From NCBI GenBank assembly GCA_021732605.1, contig JAKFUS010000015.1, forward strand, positions 62,001 to 126,000: a stretch of DNA of 64,000 nt, written 5' to 3'. The translations under genes were made by a program, and so were the position numbers. This document shows positions 3,062 through 16,164 of this stretch, piece after piece (position 1 is the first letter of the stretch; every line of letters begins with the position of its first letter). The notes beneath the pieces were generated by a model. The model ran no database searches and had not been told where the DNA came from. It was given only the letters and a program-made list of their open reading frames with translations. The stretch comes from Betaproteobacteria bacterium (GTDB taxonomy: Bacteria; Pseudomonadota; Gammaproteobacteria; Burkholderiales; SG8-41).

Positions 3062-3095
3062 ACGGCGCGTTCCGCAGGGAGCGCGCCGTTTTTAT
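3062..3095 (+). terminator. Intrinsic terminator after the SMP-30 gene
   Basis: GC-rich stem ACGGCGCG / CGCGCCGT followed by TTTTTATTT on the plus strand. It touches the end of the converging dadA gene. Confidence 0.8.
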
Positions 3096-4351
3096 TTCAA
3101 TCCCGTAAACGCAAAATCCACCTCGGGTTTCTTGCCGGAAACAATATCGGCAATCGCCCGCCCGGAACCGCAGCCGTGAGTCCAGCCCAGCGTGCCGTGG
3201 CCGGTATCGAGATAAAGGTTGGAATATTTCGTTTTGCCAATGTACGGCACGTTCGACGGCGTCGCCGGCCGCAGCCCCGTCCAGTAGCGCGCCTGCGTCA
3301 CGTCACCCGCTCCGGGAAACAGTGTTTCGGTGCGGCGGACGATGGCCTGGCAGCGCACGTCATTCAGCACGAGGTCATAACCATTCAGCTCGCAGGTGCC
3401 TGCTATGCGCAGACGGTCGCCGAGCCGCGAATACACCAGCTTGTATTCGTCGTCGGTCAGGCTGACATGATGGGCGCGTGCCACATCTGAAACCGGCAGG
3501 GTCACCGAATAACCCTTGGCCGGATAAATTGACAACCGGATGCCCAGCGGTGCCAGCAGCTGCGGACTATAGCTGCCCAGTGCAACCACATAGGCATCGC
3601 CGGTGATGGTCGAAGTGTGCCCCTCCGGTCCGGTGACACCAACTCCGCTGACGACGCCACCCGCGGTCGCGACACGGCTGACGGCATGGCCATACAAAAA
3701 CTGCACGCCGTTTTTTTCGCAGAGCAGCGCCAGTCGCTGCGTAAAGAGCTGTGCGTCACCGGATTCATCCGACGGCGTCAGGCTGCCGCCGACAATGCCC
3801 GCGCGGGCATGCGCCAGCGCCGGTTCTATCGCCACGCACTCCTCCCGCGTTTTCATGTCGAGTTCGCAACCGAACTCGCGCATGATGCGCGCCGGTTCCT
3901 GCGCAGAGTCGAAGGCTTGCTGGCTGGTGTAGAAATGCAAGATGCCGCGTTCAAGGTGGTCATACTCGATGCCGGTCTCGGTGCGCAGTGCTTGCAGCAG
4001 GCCCCGGCTGTAGAGTCCGAGATTGACCAACTGGATAATGTTGTGCCGGGTGCGGGCGGGTGTGCATTCGCGCAGGAATTCCAGGCACCACTGCCATTGC
4101 CGGAGATCGGCGCGCGGCCGGAACAGCAGCGGCGCGTCCTCTTTGAACATCCAGCGCAATGCCTGCAGCGGCGCACCCGGATGAGCCCAGGGTTCGGCAT
4201 GGCTGACGGAAATCTGTCCGCCGTTGGCGAAACTGGTTTCCAGCCCCGCTGCCGGCTGGCGTTCGATCACGGTGACTTGATGTCCCGCCCGGGCCAGAAA
4301 CCACGCGGCCGTGATGCCGACGACGCCGGCACCGAGTACGATGACTCTCAT
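3092..4351 (-). CDS. dadA: D-amino acid dehydrogenase (FAD-dependent, small subunit type)
   Basis: Membrane-associated FAD flavoprotein of 419 residues that oxidatively deaminates D-amino acids to 2-oxo acids. The N-terminal Rossmann motif GAGVVGITAAWFLARAG is followed by the acidic VIERQ end of beta2, the SFANGGQIS segment typical of DadA, and a C-terminal FAD-contacting stretch TGLRPATPSNVPYIG and TGHGTLGWTHGCGSG. Length matches the family. The start ATG has GAGAGG 5 nt upstream. The leader contains a tandem glycine riboswitch, so expression is expected to follow glycine. Glycine oxidation itself is possible but not shown by sequence. Confidence 0.93.
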   Translation of the reverse strand: MRVIVLGAGVVGITAAWFLARAGHQVTVIERQPAAGLETSFANGGQISVSHAEPWAHPGAPLQALRWMFKEDAPLLFRPRADLRQWQWCLEFLRECTPARTRHNIIQLVNLGLYSRGLLQALRTETGIEYDHLERGILHFYTSQQAFDSAQEPARIMREFGCELDMKTREECVAIEPALAHARAGIVGGSLTPSDESGDAQLFTQRLALLCEKNGVQFLYGHAVSRVATAGGVVSGVGVTGPEGHTSTITGDAYVVALGSYSPQLLAPLGIRLSIYPAKGYSVTLPVSDVARAHHVSLTDDEYKLVYSRLGDRLRIAGTCELNGYDLVLNDVRCQAIVRRTETLFPGAGDVTQARYWTGLRPATPSNVPYIGKTKYSNLYLDTGHGTLGWTHGCGSGRAIADIVSGKKPEVDFAFTGLK

Positions 4352-4352
4352 T

Positions 4353-4367
4353 TGAACCTCTCAGGTT
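4353..4367 (-). promoter_or_regulatory. dadA Shine-Dalgarno region with anti-aptamer complementarity
   Basis: On the minus strand the ribosome-binding region reads ACCTGAGAGG (4366 to 4357). ACCTGAGAG is an exact 9-nt complement of CTCTCAGGT (4431 to 4423) in the closing helix of the second glycine aptamer. It can also form a small local hairpin (AACCT-GAG-AGGTT). Both suggest that Shine-Dalgarno access is the controlled step. Confidence 0.6.
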
Positions 4368-4408
4368 GCGAAAAGACACAGAACGGAGCTGTTAAGCTCC
4401 GCGCCGCC

Positions 4409-4592
4409 CTCGCTGTCCATTTACCTGAGAGTTTTGCGAACCTGAGTTCGCGTGCCCCTTCGGTGGACCTTGCCGGTTTCCCGGTGGTCACTCTCCAGAT
4501 CGGCTGCTGCTGTCTGCAGTAAATGGGCCTGAGCGATCATGAGGGTTTACGCCTTCGGCGGGGATTACGGGAATCCCGCTCTCCTGCAGACG
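4409..4592 (-). promoter_or_regulatory. Tandem glycine riboswitch (two gcvT-type aptamers) upstream of dadA
   Basis: Read on the minus strand. Aptamer 1 (about 4588 to 4509) has GGAGAG, the core GCCGAAGGCGTAAA and the closing CGCTCAGGCCC. After a short linker, aptamer 2 (about 4498 to 4409) has GGAGAGTG, ACCGAAGGGGCA, and CTCTCAGGTAAATGGACAG. These are the hallmark conserved segments of the glycine riboswitch class, in the usual two-aptamer arrangement. The downstream gene in the same direction is dadA, starting about 58 nt after aptamer 2. An intervening stem (GGAGCT/AGCTCC, 4385-4400) lacks a real U run, so translational control is favoured over termination. Confidence 0.9.
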
Positions 4593-4648
4593 CTTGTCAT
4601 TCTAAACGCTGCAGTGCAGCACAACAAGGCTGTCGCCGCGTGCTGCCG

Positions 4649-16088: not shown

Positions 16089-16164
16089 GCCCCGGTAGCT
16101 CAGTGGATAGAGCAGTCCCCTCCTAAGGGACAGGTCGGACGTTCGATTCGTCTTCGGGGCGCCA
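16089..16164 (+). tRNA. tRNA-Arg (anticodon CCT)
   Basis: Full cloverleaf: acceptor GCCCCGG / TCGGGGC, D stem GCTC/GAGC, anticodon stem GTCCC/GGGAC with loop CTCCTAA (anticodon CCT, decoding AGG), T loop TTCGATT, discriminator G and encoded CCA at 16162-16164. 76 nt. No integrase or duplicated 3' end was seen near it. Confidence 0.96.

Follow-up and report, generated by a model that had tools for sequence, protein, structure and literature searches.

A tandem glycine riboswitch upstream of dadA as a probable translational ON switch, and its association with missing glycine cleavage genes in Burkholderiales

A tandem glycine riboswitch is located directly upstream of dadA, encoding an FAD-dependent D-amino acid dehydrogenase, in a betaproteobacterial genome in which our searches revealed no glycine cleavage genes. 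We consider it probable that this riboswitch activates the translation of dadA when glycine is high, serving glycine disposal. What we observed directly comprises the parts of the riboswitch, the complementarity between its second aptamer and the dadA ribosome-binding site (RBS), the conservation of this complementarity among close relatives, the failure of the searches to reveal gcvP or gcvT, and the association across genomes. The region analyzed, referred to as the window, is a stretch of 64,000 nucleotides. The features at the dadA locus are as follows:

4599..4604 (-), candidate -10 element TAGAAT, which would put the transcript start beside aptamer 1
4507..4596 (-), aptamer 1, glycine riboswitch (RF00504, 56.3 bits, E 6.3e-9; P3a is GCG/CGC, three G-C pairs)
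4413..4500 (-), aptamer 2, diverged glycine riboswitch (core motifs and P3/P3a pairs; P3a is GGG/CUC, two G-C pairs and one G-U)
4423..4431 (-), CTCTCAGGT, which makes up the entire 3' strand of P3/P3a in aptamer 2 and is the proposed anti-Shine-Dalgarno; identical in all 11 leaders of an alignment
4399..4412 (-), conserved tract CGAGGGCGGCGCGG immediately 3' of aptamer 2, with GAGGG at 4407-4411
4383..4402 (-), linker hairpin CGGAGC-TTAACA-GCTCCG in the interval from aptamer 2 to the RBS, with a weakly terminator-like tail
4358..4366 (-), ACCTGAGAG, which is exactly complementary to 4423-4431 and overlaps the dadA RBS (duplex -16.7 kcal/mol)
4357..4362 (-), Shine-Dalgarno (SD) GAGAGG, 5 nt upstream of the ATG, read from the sequence
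4351-4349 (-), dadA start codon ATG
3092..4351 (-), dadA, FAD-dependent D-amino acid dehydrogenase of the PRK00711 subfamily, 419 aa (NCBIfam match)

A sequence-only reading had placed a tandem glycine riboswitch controlling dadA at 4353-4592, a span that fits the leader to within a few bases, and had suggested a covariance-model search as a check. In this search (cmscan), aptamer 1 clearly exceeded the RF00504 gathering score of 32 bits; aptamer 2 gave no match at the gathering level and stayed below every Rfam cut-off. The tandem arrangement nevertheless stands, with aptamer 2 recognized by its core motifs. The elements GGAGAG, P2 GACC/GGTC, CCGAAGG, P3b, CTCTCAGG and GGACAG follow each other in the canonical order, and all eight P3/P3a pairs are possible, one of them as G-U. 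The core GGAGAG / CCGAAGG / CTCTCAGG is present in order in both aptamers, aptamer 1 having CGCTCAGG. Moreover, second aptamers like aptamer 2 in the relatives G001 and G003 exceed the RF00504 cut-off. A permissive scan listed only the clan relative RF03166 at aptamer 2 (4498-4413, 23.8 bits, a partial match to positions 15-99 of 177), where clan competition would hide any lower RF00504 score. The glycine-GGAnGA variant class that RF03166 represents was ruled out for aptamer 2, as its cut-off is 110 bits. Elsewhere in the window, a tRNA gene is present at 16089-16161 (RF00005, 61.1 bits). The proposed target was upheld as well, the open reading frame matching PRK00711 with 519.5 bits against a cut-off of 383. 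The candidate TAGAAT element occurs at the matching place in seven of the nine riboswitch-dadA leaders of the host genus; it is absent in G001, and the G003 leader ends at a contig edge. A promoter scan of the window called no promoter at this element.

The same reading had noted an exact 9-nt complement between aptamer 2 and the region upstream of dadA, and its coordinates proved right: CTCTCAGGT and ACCTGAGAG can form nine exact base pairs that cover five of the six bases of the SD, that is, part of the RBS. The ACCTGAGAG 9-mer has no other copy in the window except for the complement of the aptamer segment itself. Among 684 other start contexts in the window (ATG, GTG or TTG with an SD-like core; contexts, not annotated genes), a single one has a more favourable pairing energy with this segment of aptamer 2 (-17.7 versus -16.7 kcal/mol). 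CUCUC belongs to the conserved aptamer core and is partly complementary to any purine-rich SD, and therefore the ACCT half carries most of the information in the match.

Pairing energies were compared between groups of leaders. The 34 riboswitch-dadA leaders, in which the dadA starts lie 38 to 115 nt downstream of the aptamer-2 CTCTCAGG, had a mean of -10.5 kcal/mol. The 74 dadA starts that lack a riboswitch, mostly from Marinobacter, had a mean of -6.7 and a lowest value of -13.1 kcal/mol, and the 129 gcvT riboswitch leaders (those among 180 gcvT loci where the script could set the start) a mean of -7.3 and a lowest value of -13.5 kcal/mol. The pairing of the host leader thus exceeds all members of both control groups. 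Eight of the 34 leaders are at or below -12 kcal/mol, namely those of the host genome, of G004, G005, G007, G016, G017 and G019 of the host genus, and of G043 of a neighbouring genus. At least nine contiguous pairs are found in just seven of the 34 (six of the host genus and G043), and in the remaining riboswitch-dadA leaders the anti-SD pairing is weaker or absent. Six riboswitch-dadA loci (L100, L101 and L171-L174) lie outside the set of 34; pairing in L100 and L101 is weak (-5.6). In the window, the P3b loop offers a further anti-SD (CTCAGGTT versus AACCTGAG), which was rejected because relatives, G005 and G007 among them, do not keep it intact.

Across 11 aligned leaders, the 9-bp helix comprises 99 cells, of which 89 are paired and 10 unpaired. 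All departures are on the SD side, where seven altered cells still pair as G-U, and two-sided changes were found at none of the nine positions. With an aptamer strand that is constant throughout, covariation provides evidence neither for nor against the anti-SD helix. By comparison, three of the six pairs of the linker hairpin (4402-4383) show two-sided changes among the same leaders. The tract that follows aptamer 2 reads GAGGG in 9 of the 11 leaders and GGGAG in the other 2, and an invariant CGGCG follows it; the tract is a possible P5 pseudoknot partner or a rival partner of CTCTC.

Taken together, these features would explain a switch as follows. When glycine is absent, CTCTCAGGT would pair with ACCTGAGAG over the dadA RBS, and the site would be blocked. 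Binding of glycine, probably led by the better-conserved aptamer 1, would lock the P3/P3a strand inside aptamer 2, which would free the RBS and turn translation ON. The purpose would be glycine disposal, with DadA oxidizing glycine to glyoxylate and ammonia, or otherwise relieving an excess of glycine. Glycine binding, the switch itself and glycine as a DadA substrate are the elements that we infer.

Folding of the segment from aptamer 2 to codon 10 in the host and 17 other leaders is consistent with the anti-SD helix: its mean probability is 0.99 in the host and at least 0.66 in 11 of the 17 others; the values are 0.47 in G076, 0.38 in G003 and 0 in L100, L101, G090 and G147. An unconstrained fold of the full leader of the host genome gave a probability of 0.0 for this helix. 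As a test of the switch, full-leader folding was judged uninformative and given little weight, because aptamer 1 is likewise lost in this global fold. The modelled accessibility of positions -14 to +3 barely shifts between the two states, from a mean of 0.42 to 0.48. RNAalifold favours a pairing of CTCTC with GAGGG at 4407-4411 (GGGAG in two) in all 11 leaders. The translational ON switch that the sequence-only reading had predicted is therefore upheld in part: the pairing beats the controls, is largely kept in close relatives and has a precedent in Neisseria gonorrhoeae (available excerpt of PMC13104608), but neither the full-leader fold nor RNAalifold returns the anti-SD helix. On balance, we regard a translational ON switch at dadA as well supported, though unproven.

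Three other readings of the leader were weighed. One is that the key alternative pairing is local, between CTCTC and the GAGGG right after aptamer 2, and that the SD is controlled indirectly or via a P5 pseudoknot. This agrees with the choice of RNAalifold, with the survival of that pairing through one-sided changes in 11 of 11 leaders and with the stronger conservation of the tract than of the SD side in these leaders; a poly-G tract after aptamer 2 forms a P5 pseudoknot in many aminomethyltransferase riboswitches (excerpt of PMC13104608). However, the local pairing is short and includes a G-U, P5 explains the G tract equally, and the 9-bp SD complement is longer, so that we regard this reading as improbable. 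Equally unlikely, in our view, is a genuine ON riboswitch that acts on transcription, by intrinsic or Rho-dependent termination in 4383-4402, with the SD match as a by-product of CUCUC. The B. subtilis glycine riboswitch acts by termination; strong hairpins followed by U runs are seen by eye 3' of aptamer 2 in G076 and G147, and a scan of the window detected one terminator-like site, 4402-4383, where 0.4 are expected in shuffled sequences. Yet the U tail of this site is broken, none of the 129 gcvT leaders measured reaches the SD pairing of the host, and terminator-like matches occur in just 2 of the 34 leaders, although the scan also misses the G076 and G147 hairpins and is thus not sensitive. 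The third reading, which we hold to be a real though minor possibility, is that aptamer 2 has drifted too far and that aptamer 1 alone binds glycine, with aptamer 2 as a scaffold or expression platform. The score of 23.8 bits is in line with this, as is the single RF00504 match, under strict filters, in seven of the nine riboswitch-dadA genomes of the genus. Against it, CCGAAGG and CTCTCAGG are intact, and the aptamer 2 of N. gonorrhoeae takes part in switching despite its low score (excerpt of PMC13104608). Translational control through the anti-SD helix remains the reading that we prefer.

The genomic setting bears on what such a switch would be for. The host genome, which is 96.5% complete, contains exactly one glycine riboswitch, no gcvP match and no gcvT over the cut-off (the best match scored 21.5 bits against 235.85). 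Given that the host is without a detectable glycine cleavage system, control of dadA by glycine is sensible rather than odd. Among 149 relatives including the host, gcvP is present in 82 and a riboswitch in 60. In 16 of these 60, the riboswitch is located directly on a close DadA (defined as at least 50% identical), and 15 of the 16 lack gcvP, the exception being G027. A DadA-like match was obtained in 96 of 100 relatives, so that what differs between genomes is not whether dadA is present.

From the order, 399 genomes were drawn evenly; 234 of them had a riboswitch and 282 had gcvP. Removal of the 45 riboswitch genomes that had already been used to form the idea left 189 as a test set. In these new genomes, the riboswitch is on a close DadA in 14 of 23 gcvP-less genomes versus at least 4 of 166 gcvP-bearing ones (Fisher p 4e-12, ignoring shared descent). 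For all 249 riboswitch genomes the counts are 29 of 42 versus at least 5 of 207 (Fisher p 8e-23, ignoring shared descent), the 5 being a lower bound as some second riboswitches of gcvP-bearing genomes lie outside the count. When only gcvP-less genomes that are at least 90% complete are considered, 18 of 28 have the riboswitch on a close DadA (Fisher p 9e-16, again ignoring shared descent); the genomes compared are not phylogenetically independent. The gcvP-bearing loci sampled at first mostly belonged to riboswitches with top scores, so that dadA cases might have been overlooked. To correct for this bias, 60 genomes with previously unlisted places were examined and further loci added, after which the new set included 4 gcvP-bearing genomes with riboswitch-dadA, compared with 0 before. 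Six further second riboswitches in gcvP-bearing genomes had no close DadA behind them, and one of these six preceded a DadA6-like gene. The label "gcvT" refers here to a gcvT within the fetched stretch, with the distance to the riboswitch measured for part of the loci. In a tree of 52 rows, riboswitch-dadA needs eight label changes, at least four of which are forced by well-supported branches, with the bootstrap unsettled. The tree does not bear out a single origin, and repeated gain and repeated loss are indistinguishable on it.

The contrast is also seen among close relatives. In genus g38, G147, G431 and G455 have riboswitch-dadA and no gcvP (G431 is 79% and G455 64% complete), whereas G189, G227, G262, G292, G321 and G406 have riboswitch-gcvT together with gcvP. 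In family f18, G090 and G283 have riboswitch-dadA without gcvP, and G136, G253 and G312 have gcvP and no close DadA in the fetched stretches; family f4 provides a contrast between G076 and G125. Within the host genus, neither of the two gcvP-bearing genomes, G002 and G011, shows a riboswitch. Outside the order, four loci, L171-L174, have a glycine riboswitch ahead of a DadA that shares 52 to 53% identity with that of the window; the record names are Pseudorhodoplanes (L171), Xanthobacteraceae (L172) and Proteobacteria (L173 and L174). The L172 protein belongs to PRK00711, and gcvP was found in none of these four genomes.

There are exceptions in both directions. Riboswitch-dadA together with gcvP occurs in G027 and in the MOLA814 lineage (L100 and L101, one lineage), and the gcvP-bearing genomes G196, G203, G267 and G413 carry a riboswitch on dadA and a separate one with gcvT. 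Conversely, 13 of the 42 gcvP-less riboswitch genomes have no close DadA behind the riboswitch. Five of these have a distant DadA (G018, G048, G179, G398 and G456), G388 (87% complete) has its riboswitch with gcvT, and the rest have other genes or are unplaced (G124, at a contig end, G148, G245, G293, G334, G384 and G432). In addition, no riboswitch was seen in at least nine members of the host genus that lack gcvP (G006, G008, G009, G010, G012-G015 and G020). Among these, G020 encodes an 86% identical DadA; at this locus (L067 / L096) the upstream MOSC-type gene stops about 25 nt before dadA, as judged by eye, and the leader was probably lost by a natural deletion. The Methylobacterium bullatum DadA (49% identical, L383) gave no riboswitch match.

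Several other glycine riboswitches were observed in the course of these comparisons. A second tandem type precedes a distant DadA (34-40% identical) at L002, L003, L004, L024 and L061; its aptamer 1 is strong and its aptamer 2 unusual, with GAAGAG for GGAGAG in all five and CCGCAGG for CCGAAGG in three of five. In gcvP-less genomes, glycine riboswitches are located upstream of transporter- or channel-like genes at L202, L228 (G334) and L210 (G245), which we take to resemble a sodium:alanine symporter and a TRIC-type channel, and upstream of an oxidoreductase-like gene at L208 (G384). Three gcvP-less genomes of about 2 Mb retain a tandem glycine riboswitch (L025, L203 and L204, in G148, G293 and G432), and the script detected no ORF of at least 70 aa starting close behind it.

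As for the protein, a sequence comparison gave glycine oxidases as the solved structures nearest to the window DadA, with low similarity (best E 7.8e-20). A comparison of 39 riboswitch-linked with 84 unlinked DadA sequences, the latter mostly from Marinobacter, gave no residue that splits the two groups cleanly; at the best separating position, 345, all 39 linked proteins have F, but so do 24 of the 84 unlinked ones. E. coli DadA is very poor on glycine, with a KM above 500 mM and a kcat/KM of 0.275 per M per s (available excerpt of PMC9436414).

A parallel is offered by dadA6 of Cupriavidus necator. This gene was termed "glycine oxidase", and its deletion gave no gain in growth or yield on formate (excerpt of PMC11879842). 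According to the available part of a further article, dadA6 contributes substantially in engineered C. necator, and ThiO has no such role in P. putida (PMC12421819). We found RF00504 upstream of DadA6-like genes in C. metallidurans CH34, C. oxalaticus, Comamonas testosteroni and Paraburkholderia caribensis; the proteins of CH34 and G379 were tested and fall in the PRK12409 subfamily. The DadA of G228 is 92% identical to a Cupriavidus protein, and G379 is of the same genus as G228. In G379, a site for one of the published dadA6 check primers, with a single mismatch, lies about 1.17 kb upstream of the gene linked to the riboswitch, and the other check primer was not found. The riboswitch-linked PRK12409 DadA is thus likely dadA6, an identity based on one primer site. 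The G379 protein is just 39% identical to the window DadA, for which glycine oxidation is therefore an extrapolation. Two side observations concern the surroundings of these genes. In C. oxalaticus and Comamonas testosteroni (L380, L381), the riboswitch and the DadA6-like gene are located on plasmids, with an integrase following them in one and an IS5-family transposase nearby in the other; the unit may be mobile. In G379, a C4 antisense RNA match (RF01695, 49.7 bits; L377:2350-2442, (-)) lies just 3' of the dadA6-like gene, suggesting that prophage sequence adjoins it.

By analogy, riboswitch-linked DadA would oxidize glycine where glycine cleavage is missing. The competing reading is that DadA is an ordinary D-alanine dehydrogenase and that glycine merely signals a surplus of small amino acids or the cell-wall stress that glycine provokes. 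PRK00711 proteins carry the annotation D-amino acid dehydrogenase, the E. coli enzyme scarcely uses glycine (excerpt of PMC9436414), and our crude comparison yielded no residue unique to riboswitch-linked DadA. This reading, which we consider doubtful without dismissing it, leaves unexplained why the link occurs mostly where gcvP is missing, and also the dadA6 parallel. The large genomic association and this parallel instead suggest that a riboswitch-controlled DadA replaces glycine cleavage. A broader proposal, which we see as evenly poised, is that DadA proteins behind glycine riboswitches are glycine dehydrogenases, forming a replacement glycine sink in many Burkholderiales and some Alphaproteobacteria without glycine cleavage, for which at least two DadA subfamilies and several expression platforms were recruited. 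If true, this would assign a function to the many proteins whose only name so far is D-amino acid dehydrogenase. Glycine is produced with every one-carbon unit taken from serine, and the proposal, if true, would show how bacteria without glycine cleavage could handle the glycine that results from a serine-derived one-carbon supply.

The riboswitch class and the translational mechanism are already known; dadA as a glycine riboswitch target, concentrated in gcvP-less genomes, was not found in the literature searched, in which the twelve riboswitch-regulated glycine-metabolism genes of PMC3766115 (available part) are named just in its supplement. The mechanism is the known one of N. gonorrhoeae gcvT applied to a new gene. 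In the available excerpt of PMC13104608, the gcvT tandem glycine riboswitch of N. gonorrhoeae is a translational ON switch in which nucleotides of aptamer-2 P3a/P3/P1 pair just upstream of gcvT, and mutations on either side derepress. Like the window leader, it is a betaproteobacterial tandem ON switch with a conserved aptamer 1 and a diverged aptamer 2, of which the P3a/P3 strand pairs directly upstream of the start codon; the complementarity of the aptamer-2 P3/P3a 3' strand to the RBS was found at dadA as well. It differs in that its target is gcvT and not dadA, glycine cleavage is present and an sRNA also acts (PMC13104608, excerpt). The RF00504 riboswitches of the glycine-catabolism (ON) type share with the window the tandem aptamers, the three G-C pairs in aptamer-1 P3a and the two in aptamer 2 (excerpt of PMC13104608), whereas the window aptamer 2 is below the Rfam cut-off and the window target is dadA. 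Cupriavidus dadA6 is alike in encoding a DadA-type flavoenzyme with, probably, a glycine riboswitch immediately upstream; in contrast, it belongs to PRK12409, is about 39% identical, and G228 and G379 also have gcvP. Finally, the riboswitch of malate synthase glcB in Pelagibacter-like metagenome fragments is another example in Proteobacteria of a glycine riboswitch target outside the glycine cleavage system, although it concerns another enzyme and another step (excerpt of PMC2211319).
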